11,987 bases of DNA, from contig CAMCHA010000027.1 of assembly GCA_945874515.1 (NCBI GenBank), forward strand, positions 1 to 11,987. The letters are read 5' to 3'. Below the pieces are notes generated by a model that saw only the letters and a program-made list of their open reading frames with translations, did not search any database and was not told the origin of the DNA. The position numbers were made by a program, and so were the translations under genes. Positions 1,229 through 11,987 of this stretch are shown one piece after another (within the stretch, counting starts at the first letter, position 1; each line of letters begins with the position of its first letter). The stretch comes from Asaia bogorensis (lineage in GTDB: Bacteria > Pseudomonadota > Alphaproteobacteria > Acetobacterales > Acetobacteraceae).

Positions 1229-1274
1229 ATCCCCTGAGGTGCGTCGCCATTGTCCGCCCGCTCAACCAGGGGAT
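1229..1274 (+). promoter_or_regulatory. Inverted repeat in the secDF leader covering its presumed ribosome binding site
   Basis: ATCCCCTG (1229-1236) and CAGGGGAT (1267-1274) are perfect 8-base inverted repeats separated by 30 bases. The right arm contains AGGGGA (1268-1273), the only plausible Shine-Dalgarno sequence for the secDF ATG at 1286. If transcription starts upstream of 1229, the leader could fold and hide the ribosome site. Alternatively the arms are a DNA operator in the divergent promoter region shared with the Gfo/Idh gene. The repeat is seen directly; both roles are inference. Confidence 0.4.
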
Positions 1275-1285
1275 TCCACCCGTCC

Positions 1286-3856
1286 ATGCTTCATTTCGCG
1301 CGCTGGAAACAGGCTGTCATTCTGGGCGTTTGTCTGCTCGGAGTGCTTCTGTGCCTGCCGAACCTCATGCCGCGTTCGGCCTTTCCATCCTGGATGGAGC
1401 CACGCCAGATCAGCCTGGGGCTGGATTTACGCGGCGGGTCCTATCTGCTTTTGGAAGTGGATTTGAACACCGTTGTGCGGGAAAGGCTTGAATCCGCGGT
1501 GGATGGCGTGCGCGGCAAGCTCCGCACCGCCAATATCCGCTATGTGAATTTGGCCGCGGATGGGCCAAACCGTCGCATGGGTTTCCGTGTGCTGGACCCG
1601 GCGCAGGTCAGCGCCGCGGCTGCGGCTTTGCGAGAATTGGCCGAACCCGTGACTCTGCCCACCGGCCAGAGTTTGCCGGATATTGAGGTCACGACCGCCC
1701 CTGATGGCACTGTCACAGCCACACTCAGCGAAGCGGGGCTCCGCGCCAAAGCCACCGCGGCCGTTGAACAATCCATTGAAATCATCCGCCGCCGTGTGGA
1801 TGAAACCGGCGTCGCCGAGGCACTGATCGCGCGCCAGGGGCAGTCGCGCATTCTGGTGACCCTGCCAGGCGTGGAAGACCCCAATCGCATCAAAGATTTG
1901 CTGGGCCGCACCGCGCGCATGACGTTCCATTTGGTGGATGAAGGCGCCAATCTGGCCGGCAGCCCGCCGCCAGGTGTCATGTTCCTGCCCAGCGAACGCG
2001 CCGGAGAACGTGTGGCCGTGCGCCGCAATGTCGCGGTGGATGGCAAGAACCTCACTAATGCCCGCGCCGGGCAGGATTCGCGGACCGGCGAATGGGTGGT
2101 GAATTTCACCTTTGATGGCACCGGCACCAGGCGCTTTGCCGAAATCACCCGCGCCAATGTGGGCCGCCCCTTCGCCATTGTGCTGGATGAAAAGGTCATC
2201 AGCGCGCCCGTGATCCGGGAACCCATTACCGGCGGCCAGGGGCAGATCAGCGGTTCCTTTACCGTGCGCACAGCGAATGACCTTTCCGTCTTGCTGCGCG
2301 CCGGCGCCCTGCCGGCACCGCTCACGATTGTGGAAGAACGCACGGTGGGCCCGGAATTGGGCGCGGATGCCGTGCGCGCGGGCATGATCTCGCTCGCGGT
2401 CGGCACGCTTTTCGTGTTCCTTTATATGGGCTTTGCCTATGGGGTCTTGGGCTGGTTTGCGAATATCGCGCTGGCCTTCAACATCATTCTGCTGATGGCG
2501 GGGCTTTCGGTGTTGGAGGCAACGCTGACGCTGCCCGGCATCGCCGGGATTGTGCTGACGCTTGGCACCGCGCTTGATGCGAATATCCTCATCAATGAAC
2601 GCATCCGTGAGGAAGTGAAGAACGGGCGAACGCCGATAAATGCGTTGGAGGCGGGCTACACCAAGGCGTCCGGCACCATTCTCGATTCAAACGTCACGAA
2701 CCTTATTGCCATGGCCTGTTTGTATGGCTTTGGATCGGGCCCGGTGAAGGGTTTTGCCGTCACGGTTGCCATCGGTACCATTGTGCAGATGTGGACGGCT
2801 ACCGTCCTGACGCGGCTTTTCGCTTCCTGGTGGTATCGCCGGACGCGGCCCAAGGAATTGCCGGTATTCCAACGCCCTGGGCTTTCGTTGTGGGAACGCC
2901 TGCGCCGCCCGCTTTTTCGTATTTTCCCGGATGGCACGCGCATTCCCTTCATGCGGGGTGCCAAGACGGGGCTCATCATCTCGGCGGTGCTTTCAACGCT
3001 TTCGGTAGCCATTGCCTTCCACCCAGGGCTGGAGAAAGGGATTGATTTCAAGGGCGGTGTGGAGATGGAAATCCGTACCCCCGGCCCGGGCGATATCAGC
3101 GTGTTGCGTGGCGCGGTTAGCGGGCTTGGGCTTGGCGATGCAACGCTGTTGCAATTTGGCGATCCTGCGACCTTCGCGCTGCGCCTACCCGCGCAAGGCG
3201 ATGAAGGCGGCGTGCAAAGGGCCGTCACCGCCGTGCGCGAGGCTTTTGAAAAAGCCGCGCCCGGTACGCGCATCCTGCGCGTGGAAGCGGTTGGCAATCG
3301 CATTTCGAATGAGCTGTTCCTGGGCGGGCTAATGGCGTTGGGCCTGAGCTTCCTCGCCATGCTGCTATATATCTGGATCAGGTTTGAATGGCAGTTCGGC
3401 ATCGCCGCCATCACCACGCTGATCCTGGATGCGACAAAAACCATCGGCTTCATGGTGCTGTTCGGCATTGAGTTTAATCTGACCACCGTCGCCGCGATCC
3501 TGACCGTCATTGGCTTTTCGGCGAATGACAAGGTGGTGGTTTTTGACCGCATGCGGGAGAATTTGCGCAAGTTCAAAGCCATGCCGCTTGAGCAATTGGT
3601 TGATCTTTCCATCAATGAGACGATGAACCGCTCACTCGGCACTTCCATGACCTTGCTGCTGTCTGCGCTGCCCCTCGCCCTTTTCGGTGGCGATACGCTT
3701 TCAGGCTTTGCCTGGGTGATGGTTGTCGGCATTTTGATTTCCGCCGCGTCTTCAGTGTTTATTGCGGCACCGATTGTATTGTTCACCGGGCGCAATCGGC
3801 TGCGCATGCCGGACGCCGCCCCACCGGGGAGAGTTGAGGGCGCTGCGGCAAGCTAG
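1286..3856 (+). CDS. secDF: Protein translocase subunit SecDF (SecD-SecF fusion)
   Basis: One 856-residue chain joins SecD and SecF, the membrane proteins that use the proton gradient to pull exported proteins across the inner membrane after SecYEG/SecA. The SecD half has a first membrane segment at about residues 8-27, the LGLDLRGGS motif (44-52), a large periplasmic P1 region, RAGALPAPL near 338-347, and five further membrane segments. It carries TALDANILINERIREE, with the conserved transmembrane Asp at about 431. The SecF half starts near residue 555, with GIDFKGGV (585-592), a smaller periplasmic domain and GFSANDKVVVFDRMREN, with its Asp at about 748. Both proton-path Asp residues are therefore present; SecF usually has T where this one has K after the Asp. 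The ATG at 1286 is chosen over an in-frame TTG at 1250 because the family begins MLHF-RWK and AGGGGA lies 12 bases upstream. No yajC is beside it, unlike the usual yajC-secD-secF order. Fused SecDF of about 850 residues is known in rhizobia and some other bacteria. Confidence 0.96.
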   Translation: MLHFARWKQAVILGVCLLGVLLCLPNLMPRSAFPSWMEPRQISLGLDLRGGSYLLLEVDLNTVVRERLESAVDGVRGKLRTANIRYVNLAADGPNRRMGFRVLDPAQVSAAAAALRELAEPVTLPTGQSLPDIEVTTAPDGTVTATLSEAGLRAKATAAVEQSIEIIRRRVDETGVAEALIARQGQSRILVTLPGVEDPNRIKDLLGRTARMTFHLVDEGANLAGSPPPGVMFLPSERAGERVAVRRNVAVDGKNLTNARAGQDSRTGEWVVNFTFDGTGTRRFAEITRANVGRPFAIVLDEKVISAPVIREPITGGQGQISGSFTVRTANDLSVLLRAGALPAPLTIVEERTVGPELGADAVRAGMISLAVGTLFVFLYMGFAYGVLGWFANIALAFNIILLMAGLSVLEATLTLPGIAGIVLTLGTALDANILINERIREEVKNGRTPINALEAGYTKASGTILDSNVTNLIAMACLYGFGSGPVKGFAVTVAIGTIVQMWTATVLTRLFASWWYRRTRPKELPVFQRPGLSLWERLRRPLFRIFPDGTRIPFMRGAKTGLIISAVLSTLSVAIAFHPGLEKGIDFKGGVEMEIRTPGPGDISVLRGAVSGLGLGDATLLQFGDPATFALRLPAQGDEGGVQRAVTAVREAFEKAAPGTRILRVEAVGNRISNELFLGGLMALGLSFLAMLLYIWIRFEWQFGIAAITTLILDATKTIGFMVLFGIEFNLTTVAAILTVIGFSANDKVVVFDRMRENLRKFKAMPLEQLVDLSINETMNRSLGTSMTLLLSALPLALFGGDTLSGFAWVMVVGILISAASSVFIAAPIVLFTGRNRLRMPDAAPPGRVEGAAAS

Positions 3857-8099: not shown

Positions 8100-8193
8100 A
8101 CCCCTCTATTTCATGCGGACCGCCAAGCGGACAAAGGATCCCAGATATTTTGGTATCGCCACAAAAATTATGCGTGCTAGACTGGACTTCATC

Positions 8194-9426
8194 ATGAAGA
8201 CCCATCCGGACAGAAAAGCGGACGAGAAAGCACCCTCTGATCGGGAAGAAGCCATCAGCATGATGGAGCCCATGGTGGTTTCTGATACTTCTCGGCACCG
8301 ATCCGAGCTCGCTGACTTAGCGGTAGAATTGGCGTCAGAATCCTCGGCCTTCAAGAGTAGTCTGCCACAAGGCGTGCTTGCAGCCCTGGCCGAACTCGTG
8401 CGCGCCATGAACTGCTACTACAGCAACCTCATTGAAGGGCATGACACCCATCCGACCGATATTGAACGCGCGCTTAAGAATGATTTCAGTACGGATGCGC
8501 GGAAGCGGGACCTGCAGCTTGAAGCGAAAGCCCATATCACTGTCCAGAGATGGATTGACGAAGGCGGCTTGACCGGGCGCGCAACCACAGCGGAAAACTT
8601 GAAGGAAATCCATCGCAGATTCTGCGAATTGTTGCCCACGGATATGCTCTGGGTCTCTGATCCCGCCACGGGCGAGAAGCATCCTCTGACGCCCGGAGCG
8701 TTTCGCCAAAGGGATGTCCGCGTGGGCGCGCATGTGGCCATCAGCCCCGGTGCCATCCCACGGTTTCTAGCGCGCTTCGAAAATGCCTACGCCAAACCGG
8801 GCAAGGTGGATGCCATCCTGTCTGCCGCATCGGCGCATCACCGGTTGCTCTGGATTCATCCCTTTCTGGACGGCAATGGCCGCGTAGCGCGGTTGATGAC
8901 CCATGCCATGTTATTGGAGGCGCTCGACACGGGGGCGGTATGGTCGGTGGCGCGCGGGTTTGCGCGCGCCGAGACGCGCTACAAGGCGTGCCTCGCAGCC
9001 TGCGATCTAGGCCGACGCAATGACCTGGACGGGCGCGGGGCGCTGAGCGAGGAGGAACTTGCCGCATTCACCCGTTTCTTTCTGGAAACCTGCCTCGATC
9101 AGGTGCGTTTCATGCGCCAATTGGTGGAGCCAAACAGGTTACGCGCACGCATTCTGCTCTGGGCGGAGGAGGAGATCAGGACAGGTACGCTACCTGCCAA
9201 GGCGGGCAGCATTCTAGAGGCCGTCTTGTATCGAGGCGAACTTCCCCGCGCTGATGCCCCCATGATTGTCGGTGCGACCGATCGTCACGCAAGGCGCATA
9301 ACATCCGCTTTGCTCAAGGCGGGGGTCCTTTCCGCAGACAACGACCGGGCAGCGCTGCGCTTGGCCTTCCCGGCGCGCCTGGCGTCACGTTGGATGCCAG
9401 GCTTGTTCCCCGAGGATGCGCGCTAG
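8194..9426 (+). CDS. Fic family protein AMP-transferase, class II self-inhibited type
   Basis: From the ATG at 8194 the protein has 410 residues. The active-site signature HPFLDGNGRVAR (222-233) matches the Fic consensus HPFx(D/E)GN(G)RxxR exactly, so AMP (or other nucleotide) transfer from ATP to target hydroxyls is expected, with H222 catalytic. Upstream, SNLIEG (77-82) matches the inhibitory helix (S/T)xxxE(G/N), which places the protein in class II, where the inhibitory helix is in the same chain before the Fic core. After the core, DLDGRGALS is typical of the family, and the C-terminal 60 residues resemble a winged helix. The start is uncertain: in-frame ATGs exist at 8113, 8170, 8194 and 8260. 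None of the first three has a clear ribosome site, while GGGAAG precedes 8260. No separate antitoxin gene is beside it. It diverges from the RraA-like operon and converges with the Bug gene. Confidence 0.9.
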   Translation: MKTHPDRKADEKAPSDREEAISMMEPMVVSDTSRHRSELADLAVELASESSAFKSSLPQGVLAALAELVRAMNCYYSNLIEGHDTHPTDIERALKNDFSTDARKRDLQLEAKAHITVQRWIDEGGLTGRATTAENLKEIHRRFCELLPTDMLWVSDPATGEKHPLTPGAFRQRDVRVGAHVAISPGAIPRFLARFENAYAKPGKVDAILSAASAHHRLLWIHPFLDGNGRVARLMTHAMLLEALDTGAVWSVARGFARAETRYKACLAACDLGRRNDLDGRGALSEEELAAFTRFFLETCLDQVRFMRQLVEPNRLRARILLWAEEEIRTGTLPAKAGSILEAVLYRGELPRADAPMIVGATDRHARRITSALLKAGVLSADNDRAALRLAFPARLASRWMPGLFPEDAR

Positions 9427-10472: not shown

Positions 10473-10934
10473 CTATCGCAACGCCTTCCAGAGATGTAAC
10501 TGCCCGCGATTTTGATCCGGCTCGTAGCCATGTTCTCTATAGAACCGATACGCTGTCCTGGTACTCTCAAAAAAAATAGACGCACATCCCCAATTTTTGG
10601 CCGTATCCTCCAGAGAGAAAAGAATGGATTTGCTAACCCCAGAAAAGCGATATTTTGGATCAGCGTAAAGGAGGAACAGCTCTCCTTTACGGCTGATCAT
10701 CCCAACGCCAGCCAGAACGCCGTCAATCACCCCAACCAGTAGCTTCGACCGACATGAATGAAGCCATGCCTTCCATGATTCGACAGTCTTGTTGGTAATC
10801 CACTCTTGAATAGCGAGTTCGTCATTCCCGTGATCTTCGAAACACAGTTCCAGTATAGAGCGCCGTATAATACAGACACCTCCTTGGCCGTCGCTTTCGA
10901 TAGCTTGGCGAACCTGGATTTGGGGCTTCGACAC
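10473..10934 (-). CDS. GNAT family N-acetyltransferase (probably horizontally acquired)
   Basis: From the GTG at 10934 the protein has 153 residues, a normal length for a single GNAT domain, which transfers acetyl from acetyl-CoA to an amine. The first strand reads IQVRQAIESD. The acetyl-CoA-binding region is YADPKYRFSGVSKSILFSLEDTA, where the usual R/Q-x-x-G-x-G/A loop appears as RFSGVS, so it is divergent. The C-terminal AYRFYREHGYEP is the typical last motif. The substrate is unknown. GTG is preferred because GGAGAGGCAAGG lies just upstream and the domain starts there; TTG codons at 10994 and 10982 would add up to 20 residues. The gene and its upstream region are clearly richer in A and T than the neighbours (about 42% GC in the 60 bases from 10561) and use rarer codons, suggesting recent transfer. 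A GATAAT -10-like box lies at 11015-11010 on its strand, without a good -35. Confidence 0.75.
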   Translation of the reverse strand: MSKPQIQVRQAIESDGQGGVCIIRRSILELCFEDHGNDELAIQEWITNKTVESWKAWLHSCRSKLLVGVIDGVLAGVGMISRKGELFLLYADPKYRFSGVSKSILFSLEDTAKNWGCASIFFESTRTAYRFYREHGYEPDQNRGQLHLWKALR

Positions 10935-11086
10935 TATCCTTGCCTCTCCGATTCGGCGCCAAATTGCGCGGTCACCCTGCAAACCGATTTTCAAACACCG
11001 TTAAAAACAATTATCTTACACTACCCGGCCGAGAACACTTAATCTTAGCGCTAGTGGTGGTGTAGGGCCACGCAAACACTCATGTT

Positions 11087-11116
11087 TTGGGAGTATCGTT
11101 TCGTCGAGACTATTTA
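11087..11116 (+). promoter_or_regulatory. Candidate promoter of the nitrile-hydratase-like gene
   Basis: TTGGGA (11087-11092) and TATTTA (11111-11116) are separated by 18 bases, in an AT-rich stretch upstream of the gene starting at 11215. Transcription would start near 11123, leaving a leader of about 92 bases. Each box is only a partial match. The surrounding 280-base gap, between the acetyltransferase GTG and this gene, also holds the 8-base palindrome TAGCGCTA (11046-11053) and the two inverted repeats listed separately; no small gene is evident in it. Confidence 0.3.
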
Positions 11117-11139
11117 TTTTCTTTCCTAATGTCTCAGAC
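11103..11139. repeat. Imperfect inverted repeat around the candidate -10 box
   Basis: GTCGAGAC (11103-11110) and GTCTCAGAC (11131-11139) form an inverted repeat with one extra base in the right arm, separated by 20 AT-rich bases that contain the candidate -10 box TATTTA. The right arm is itself a palindrome (GTCT C AGAC). The position fits an operator for a dimeric regulator of the downstream gene. Confidence 0.3.
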
Positions 11140-11148
11140 GTTGCTTTG

Positions 11149-11164
11149 ATGCTCCCCAAAGCAT
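11149..11164. repeat. Short inverted repeat in the leader of the nitrile-hydratase-like gene
   Basis: ATGCT (11149-11153), six bases CCCCAA, AGCAT (11160-11164) form a small dyad about 50 bases before the start codon. It is too short to be strong in RNA; it could be part of an operator. Confidence 0.2.
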
Positions 11165-11214
11165 GTTGCCTGAATTGCTGCCCCTGGCAAGATGCGCCGT
11201 ATGGAGCACCCCGC

Positions 11215-11987
11215 ATGACTAAAAAACCCGACAACCTTCCGACCCATGATGTCGCCGGCCGCTTCGCCGCGCCGATAGACCAAAGCGCGCATGAACCCGC
11301 GCATTGGGAGAAGGAGGCTGACGCGATCCGCCTGCTGCTGGCCGACAAGAAGCGCAATATCTTCACCACCGATGAAAGCCGGCGCGTGCAGGAAGCGCTG
11401 GATGCGGAAACCTATTGGAAGCTGCCCTATTATGAGCGCTGGATTCACGGCTTTTCCAGCTTGCTCAAGGAAAAGGGCGTGTTGCAGGAAGCGGATTTGC
11501 TCACCGAGGAAGCGCGGCTGCGCGCCGCTGGCGAAGACAAGGTGGAAGACGCGCCCGGCGGGCATCACCACCACCATCATGATCACGACCACGAACATGA
11601 TCATGATGACCATCCCTATCAGGAAGATGATGATGCTGGGGTTGCCGTGCTATCCCCCCTGGAATTGCGCGGGCGGGCGGTGCGCAATCTGCTGATCGCA
11701 CGCGGCATTCTGACCGCGGCTGAAATCCGCGCCCAGATTGAGGCGATGGATAGCCGGGGTGAGCATCTCGGCGCGCGGGTTGTCGTGCGCGCCTGGACCG
11801 ATCCCGGCTTTGCCGCGCGGCTTGCTACCGATGCCGGCGCGGCGGTGGAAGAATTGGGCCTTTCGCGTGGGGAGACAGTGCTGACGGCGCTATTCAATAC
11901 GCAAGATGTGCATAATCTGGTCGTCTGCACGCTTTGTTCCTGTTATCCGCGTAGCGTCTTGGGCCGCCCGCCCACCTGGTATAAAAG
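11215..11987 (+). CDS. Nitrile hydratase-family fusion: beta-subunit N-terminal domain, His-rich linker, cobalt-type alpha subunit (3' end outside window)
   Basis: The 257 visible residues show three parts. Residues 9-105 resemble the N-terminal domain of the nitrile hydratase beta subunit: a THDVAGR-APID start, FTTDESRR (50-57), then YWKLPYYERWIHGF and LLKEKGVL. Residues 117-133 are a linker of 11 His and 6 Asp/Glu. Residues 146-257 are an alpha subunit: LELRGRAVRNLLIARG, GARVVVRAWTDPGFAARL (186-203), NTQDVHNLVVCTLCSC (228-243) and YPRSVLGRPPTWYK. CTLCSC is the cobalt-type metal claw, whose first and third-listed Cys are normally oxidised; the iron type has CSLCSC. The family hydrates nitriles to amides, or in thiocyanate hydrolase (whose gamma subunit is alpha-like) hydrolyses thiocyanate. 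About 90 more residues of alpha are expected beyond the window. The beta C-terminal half is absent from the visible part and may be encoded next door, as in thiocyanate hydrolase, where beta is split. The ATG at 11215 has GGAG eight bases upstream. Family assignment is firm; substrate is not. Confidence 0.88.
   Translation, partial: MTKKPDNLPTHDVAGRFAAPIDQSAHEPAHWEKEADAIRLLLADKKRNIFTTDESRRVQEALDAETYWKLPYYERWIHGFSSLLKEKGVLQEADLLTEEARLRAAGEDKVEDAPGGHHHHHHDHDHEHDHDDHPYQEDDDAGVAVLSPLELRGRAVRNLLIARGILTAAEIRAQIEAMDSRGEHLGARVVVRAWTDPGFAARLATDAGAAVEELGLSRGETVLTALFNTQDVHNLVVCTLCSCYPRSVLGRPPTWYK
11563..11613 (+). repeat. His/Asp-rich low-complexity codon tract in the nitrile-hydratase-like gene
   Basis: Seventeen codons made of CAT/CAC and GAT/GAC, with one GAA, encode six consecutive His followed by alternating His and acidic residues. 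Both synonymous codons are mixed throughout, so the tract looks selected at protein level more than the result of a recent simple-repeat expansion. His/Asp tracts of this type occur in metal-handling proteins such as HypB, UreE and CobW relatives and bind Co, Ni or Zn. Confidence 0.85.

Follow-up and report, generated by a model that had tools for sequence, protein, structure and literature searches.

A betaN-alpha nitrile hydratase fusion with a histidine-rich linker in Alphaproteobacteria, and its probable reliance on a betaC subunit encoded elsewhere

How might a nitrile hydratase that carries half of a beta subunit and has no recognisable activator gene acquire its metal and become active? 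The question is raised by a gene at the edge of the window, by which we mean the whole stretch of 11,987 nucleotides analysed here (contig CAMCHA010000027.1 of Asaia bogorensis assembly GCA_945874515.1). The gene is open on the forward strand from an ATG at 11215 and is cut at 11987, where the contig (G000:C27) and the window both end with the frame still open. The assembly comprises 2.59 Mb in 404 contigs and is 79% complete. The 257 encoded residues contain a betaN domain (PF21006, NHase_beta_N, residues 11-109, E 2.6e-18), also placed by PDB alignment (11245..11541, forward strand). It is followed in the same frame by the N-terminal part of an alpha domain (PF02979, NHase_alpha, residues 149-257, profile positions 3-113 of 184, E 6.4e-38; 11659..11985, forward strand). 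An earlier note, made from the letters of the window, had proposed this order, and the profiles bear it out. The cobalt-type claw motif CTLCSC stands, as the note had it, at residues 238-243 (11926..11943, forward strand). At E 0.001, Pfam returned nothing for the window fusion beyond these two domains. The full-length relative at locus L006 matches PF02979 at E 1.5e-76 and scores 244.1 bits against TIGR01323, slightly below the cut-off of 249.85. The betaC model PF02211 was absent from the window fusion and from the four full fusions scanned, in which PF21006 is the sole beta domain.

The two domains are separated by a histidine- and aspartate-rich linker. Its core, HHHHHHDHDHEHDHDDH (residues 117-133, or 11563..11613 on the forward strand), has 11 His and 6 Asp/Glu in 17 residues. 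In 20000 shuffles of the window protein a count of 11 His per 17 residues was never reached. A counterpart of this stretch was present in 23 of 23 rows compared. The composition first reported for the linker, 11 His and 6 acidic residues, holds for this core and fails for the 40-residue interdomain stretch, which has 11 His and 13 acidic residues.

A gene that runs into a contig end in an incomplete assembly could be an assembly artefact or a decaying pseudogene, and the earlier note had named proof of an artefact among the outcomes that would refute it. A scan of a species-genome collection with six peptide patterns yielded at least 11 loci. Four of these (L011-L014) are non-fusions, and at least seven (L004-L010), in named genomes, have the same join and domain order, with 63-95% identity to the window fusion and lengths of 324-337 aa. 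Pfam found betaN and alpha domains, and no betaC, in the two examined (L006 and L009). Isolates carrying the fusion include Falsiroseomonas bella CQN31 and Elioraea tepidiphila DSM 17972, where it lies well within contigs of 95 kb and 1.78 Mb. The fusion protein matches 228 of the 397 genomes of the family. The best 20 by score match across both domains in one open frame (those of G342 and of the window's genome being cut by contig ends), giving at least 20 genomes with the fusion; among the matches listed, those ranking below the best 20 genomes are to alpha alone. On plasmids, 178 records match, and in each of the 15 listed the match is split in two, with no fused frame. In a tree of alpha domains, those of 19 fusions group as a single clade (support 100/97), as do the betaN domains of the same 19 fusions (100/99), and dN/dS among five genomes is 0.15-0.26. 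The trees omit the fusion of G342, which is contig-cut and also lacks a linker count, as well as the fusions at L004, L005, L007 and L010; the very long branch TRI_G312a was left out of the later alpha and betaN trees. We conclude that the fusion is genuine and regard artefact or decay as extremely unlikely.

Within the fusion clade, the g46 and g98 sequences each cohere, and those of g1 and g96 do not; vertical descent throughout the clade therefore does not follow from the tree. Two g96 fusions (FUS_G106 and FUS_G163) group with the g1 fusions, while the separate three-gene alpha subunits of the same genomes group with g96 rows, at modest support. This placement reflects either transfer or poor resolution.

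The fusion has counterparts of active-site residues. In a PDB alignment counted by hand, its Arg56 (in DESR) and Tyr72 fall on betaArg56 and betaTyr72, respectively, of Rhodococcus nitrile hydratase, and the betaArg56 equivalent and the C-x-L-C-S-C claw are invariant across a 24-row fusion alignment. The equivalent of betaArg141, by the same hand count, falls in betaC, the SH3 barrel. Both arginines contact the modified cysteines. An AlphaFold2 model of the L006 protein, built with 13 rows, has a mean pLDDT of 80 and a pTM of 0.74, with residues 113-143 below 50. Foldseek matched nitrile hydratase alpha chains from E 5e-18 and beta chains at E about 0.02.

Several other identities were considered and rejected. 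The betaN domain is not an activator domain: the window protein matches the beta model TIGR03888 (58 bits) and not the activator model TIGR03889 (E 0.001), and in whole genomes the fusions score at most 20.4 bits against the TIGR03889 cut-off of 46. A thiocyanate hydrolase gamma subunit does not fit either, as the three full fusions scanned reach 184-209 of the 291 bits of TIGR03887. We also considered an NHLP/TOMM leader of a ribosomally synthesised peptide (RiPP). Two of three full fusions (L009 and L224, at 51.4 and 51.8 bits) barely exceed the 50.9-bit cut-off of TIGR03793, the separate three-gene alpha of the window's genome scores 62.5 bits, and the other leader models remain below cut-off. 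A full alpha domain with its claw plus a betaN domain makes such a leader unlikely.

Profiles were run on whole genomes for betaC (PF02211; 42 genomes, of which 20 have the fusion and 22 do not), for betaN (PF21006) and for the activator (TIGR03889). The last of these, TIGR03889, exceeded its cut-off in none of the 20 family fusion genomes, as against all seven canonical controls, in line with the earlier suspicion that an activator gene is missing. It also stayed below cut-off in the three non-fusion genomes with a three-gene locus that were tested (G115, G171 and G324). The earlier note had suggested that the linker could gather cobalt and hand it to the claw in place of the activator. Some observations are in keeping with that idea: the His/Asp linker is present in 24 of 24 fusion rows, with 5-13 His in the densest 25 residues, and a comparable stretch of 2-17 His is reported for opisthokont fusions and relatives (PMC3323583). 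Yet His-rich N-terminal tails also occur on unfused alpha subunits (for example G312, G333, G049 and G121), including some beside activator genes (G343, G385, G009, G010 and G011). The three-gene alphas of g1 and g96 begin at or near the core, and those of G115, G171 and G324 begin at the core, with neither a His tail nor an activator. Just 5 His in the densest 25 residues are found in the fusion of G208 and in one fusion of a second clade (B2, below). The alpha subunit of Pseudomonas putida nitrile hydratase (3qxe) itself has a His-rich N-terminal tail, SHTHDHHHDGYQAPP, and that enzyme is reported to require its activator P14K, a requirement that fusing beta to alpha does not remove (PMC4709657). 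Moreover, in a characterised three-subunit enzyme the betaN subunit is described as doing the activator's work (PMC7329996). The claim that the linker replaces the activator thus finds no support, and we consider it very unlikely. We favour the reading that the linker is an inherited alpha tail, probably an accessory local metal buffer rather than an activator.

The other half of the beta subunit, betaC, is encoded in trans. Exactly one betaC was found in each of the 20 family fusion genomes, never at the fusion locus. Nineteen of the 20 have two betaN copies, one fused and one in a three-gene locus; G056 has one, and no third betaN-like match was found in any of the 20. The partner locus, with the order betaN-betaC-alpha, is present in the window's genome and in 18 of the 19 other fusion genomes, the exception being G056 (phmmer, fetched loci). 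In the window's genome it lies on contig C164, where betaN, betaC and alpha each have a gene of their own, in this order, and no activator accompanies them. The fusion itself is not of this three-subunit type, as it has betaN and alpha in one chain and lacks betaC. The three-gene locus was also found in every one of the five sampled genomes of the window's genus that lack the fusion (G115, G171, G324, G358 and G371). The split of beta thus need not stem from the fusion, in agreement with an earlier suggestion that it came first. In another, partly overlapping set of 12 genomes, eight of them with fusions, one betaC was found in seven of the eight. The metagenome-assembled G002 had none; a contig other than that of the fusion carries its three-gene alpha match, and neither betaN nor betaC was matched there. 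The three-gene alphas of g46 and g98 are far apart in the tree from those of g1 and g96, so that the betaC supplied to the fusion would come from two backgrounds remote from each other.

G056, a single contig that is 98% complete, provides a natural deletion. Apart from its fusion, which has a CMLCSC claw, no alpha and no betaN was found in it. The flanks of its former three-gene site are colinear with the three-gene locus of the congener G136 at 81-82% DNA identity, and the site retains betaC only, as an open frame with 80% DNA identity to that of G136. A decayed alpha piece beside it covers the last 50 residues at 38% identity. A 96-base DNA match (72%) before betaC reaches the betaN start, and no tblastn match to betaN better than E 1 was found at the site. 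The betaArg141 equivalent is present in the surviving betaC. Pairwise dN/dS for this gene, in a genus represented by three genomes and including time before the loss, is 0.175 and 0.205 from G056 to two congeners, as against 0.067 between the congeners; for the fusion in the same trio the values are 0.175 and 0.202 (G056 to congeners) and 0.186. The betaC of G056 is thus under constraint with some acceleration, and relaxation to some degree is possible. We read the gene as one that would have been retained for the sake of the fusion. Together, the single betaC per genome and this deletion favour a betaC that binds the betaN-alpha unit, as far as sequence comparison can tell.

These data also bear on whether betaC is needed at all. 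The fusion might act without it, or on another small substrate, with betaC incidental. In its favour, the 20 family fusion loci are all devoid of a betaC match, and the alpha subunit ToyJ alone is reported to be active (cited in PMC7329996). On the other side, betaC is present in all 20 family fusion genomes and is the sole survivor at the G056 three-gene site, and preparations of AnhDA, the betaN-alpha complex of Streptomyces canus without betaC (AnhE), are reported to have 0.21-1.97% of the activity of AnhDEA (PMC7329996). We consider this alternative unlikely.

Alternatively, the fusion may not be an enzyme but a covalent counterpart of the S. canus complex AnhD2A, loaded with cobalt that it would pass directly to the three-gene nitrile hydratase and so mature it. 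In S. canus, holo-AnhDA is described as activating apo-AnhDEA to 54% (PMC7329996), direct alpha-to-alpha cobalt transfer is reported with fused P. putida subunits (PMC4709657), and 19 of 20 family fusion genomes do have a three-gene locus to mature. Against this, the locus occurs without the fusion in all five sampled non-fusion genomes of the genus, G056 keeps fusion and betaC though the three-gene alpha and betaN are gone, and a tethered alpha would not be swappable as a free alpha is. A role as donor therefore seems quite improbable.

A second set of fusions was detected in another alphaproteobacterial family: among the matches listed for 385 genomes of the class, G432 and G563 have two fusions each and G660 has one. 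These clade B proteins carry CTLCSC or CSLCSC claws and 5-7 His in the densest 25 residues. Each of the three genomes has one betaC, on a contig other than that of the fusion; with completeness of 86% for G432, 95% for G563 and 63% for G660, the single betaC of G432 and G660 is weaker evidence. The tree separates clade B from the first fusion clade, but an AU test leaves a single clade standing (p 0.107), and we do not claim independent origins. The fusions with CSLCSC, clade B2, lie at L222 (2071-3156), L225 (4952-6013) and L227 (3762-4883), and G432 and G563 also carry a CTLCSC fusion. CSLCSC is the Fe-type motif. With claws of CSLCSC and CMLCSC, cobalt is not certain in clade B2 or in G056.

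An unfused betaN-alpha pair was observed in G615 (L229, 5006-5992), where betaN ends in a TAG stop and a His-tailed alpha follows in frame, its ATG separated by 12 bases from the final codon of betaN. No betaC match was found within the 11 kb fetched around this pair, and the one betaC of G615 belongs to a three-gene locus that lies on a different contig. The pair has the gene content of the fusion before any joining.

The gene neighbourhood offers some indication of function. A divergent TctC-type solute receptor (PF03401; 9437..10585, reverse strand, in the window) adjoins the fusion in 17 of 20 loci, and in the other three the contig starts less than 200 bases from the fusion. An amidase match starts at the fusion end in 5 of 20 loci (G056, G136, G187, G208 and G300, of g46 and g98) and lies within about 4 kb in G163, G214, G278, G342 and G384. 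An isochorismatase-fold hydrolase gene follows directly in six of seven g96 loci (not G163), mostly on the opposite strand. These neighbours fit, without proving, a route from nitrile to amide to acid. In the window, a gene for a GNAT acetyltransferase (10476-10994, reverse strand) lies between the receptor and the fusion. GC content is 0.48-0.50 in the region 10500-11250, against about 0.65 before it, and the gap between receptor and fusion is much shorter in other fusion loci, so that this stretch looks like an insertion. Elsewhere, the window encodes SecD and SecF domains in a single chain of 868 aa (1250-3853, forward strand) and a Fic/DOC-family protein (8113-9423, forward strand) adjoining RraA-like and 4HBT genes.

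Given these analyses, we think it rather probable that the product of the gene is the large chain of a second cobalt-type nitrile hydratase that works without an activator, with betaC acting in trans and the tethered betaN as chaperone. The fusion would have arisen when the middle gene, betaC, was lost from a three-subunit betaN-betaC-alpha system whose alpha was His-tailed; with that gene gone, betaN would be joined to alpha through alpha's His tail. The betaN domain is predicted to supply betaArg56 and Tyr72 to the active site and, by analogy with free AnhD of S. canus, may serve as a permanent cobalt and subunit-swapping chaperone. The inherited tail would form a flexible linker and probably buffer metal locally. 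An SH3-like betaC with betaArg141 would come from the single betaC gene elsewhere, a step that we infer from gene counts and from the natural deletion in G056. The substrate is presumably a nitrile, and the amide product would pass to the amidase encoded by the next gene in some genomes. More tentatively, one betaC may serve two or three alpha units per cell, with the fused isoforms maturing themselves by means of the betaN chaperone and the His buffer; such a combinatorial system would have arisen at least once, perhaps twice, in Alphaproteobacteria. To our knowledge, it would be unusual in the nitrile hydratase family for isoenzymes encoded at distant loci to share a subunit.

How cobalt reaches the claw, and why only some nitrile hydratases need an activator, is unsettled on our reading of the papers. 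The natural betaN-alpha fusions separate factors that are usually confounded, namely the chaperone role of betaN, the His tail and betaC, and would offer a compact two-chain enzyme in which to test each. In G056, where the fusion is accompanied by betaC alone, such a minimal system already exists. Acrylamide and nicotinamide are produced with nitrile hydratases, and an activator-free two-chain form could therefore be practically useful.

Among known systems, the S. canus enzyme is like the partner locus, as its beta is split, its gene order anhD-anhE-anhA corresponds to betaN-betaC-alpha and no activator gene is described; AnhD is characterised as a metal and self-subunit-swapping chaperone in the complex AnhD2A (PMC7329996). 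The fusion genomes differ in having a second copy that lacks betaC and has betaN joined to alpha by a His-rich linker. If the fusion is a covalent AnhD-A, a need for betaC is predicted. Fusions of Monosiga brevicollis and other eukaryotes also place a beta part before alpha in one chain with a His-rich stretch between (PMC2603476, PMC3323583), with 2-17 His in the five listed (PMC3323583). Both subunits are said to seem complete in Monosiga (PMC2603476), whereas only betaN is present here. Thiocyanate hydrolase of Thiobacillus thioparus (2dd4) likewise has beta in two chains, and both fused domains match its chains, but it has no fusion and the sequences here reach as little as 184 of the 291 bits of TIGR03887. 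The canonical cobalt-type enzyme of P. putida (3qxe) shares the alpha fold, the claw and the His-rich alpha tail; unlike the fusion, it has a full beta, separate subunits and a reported requirement for P14K (PMC4709657). Its engineered fusion shares the beta-alpha order but has a full beta and a Pro-Gly linker, and is reported still to need P14K (PMC4709657). A 2012 search of prokaryotes for fusions reported no real one (PMC3323583), and in the open-licence literature, judged by titles, abstract openings and passages, we recognised no bacterial betaN-alpha fusion. The three-gene type and the betaN chaperone, by contrast, are known.
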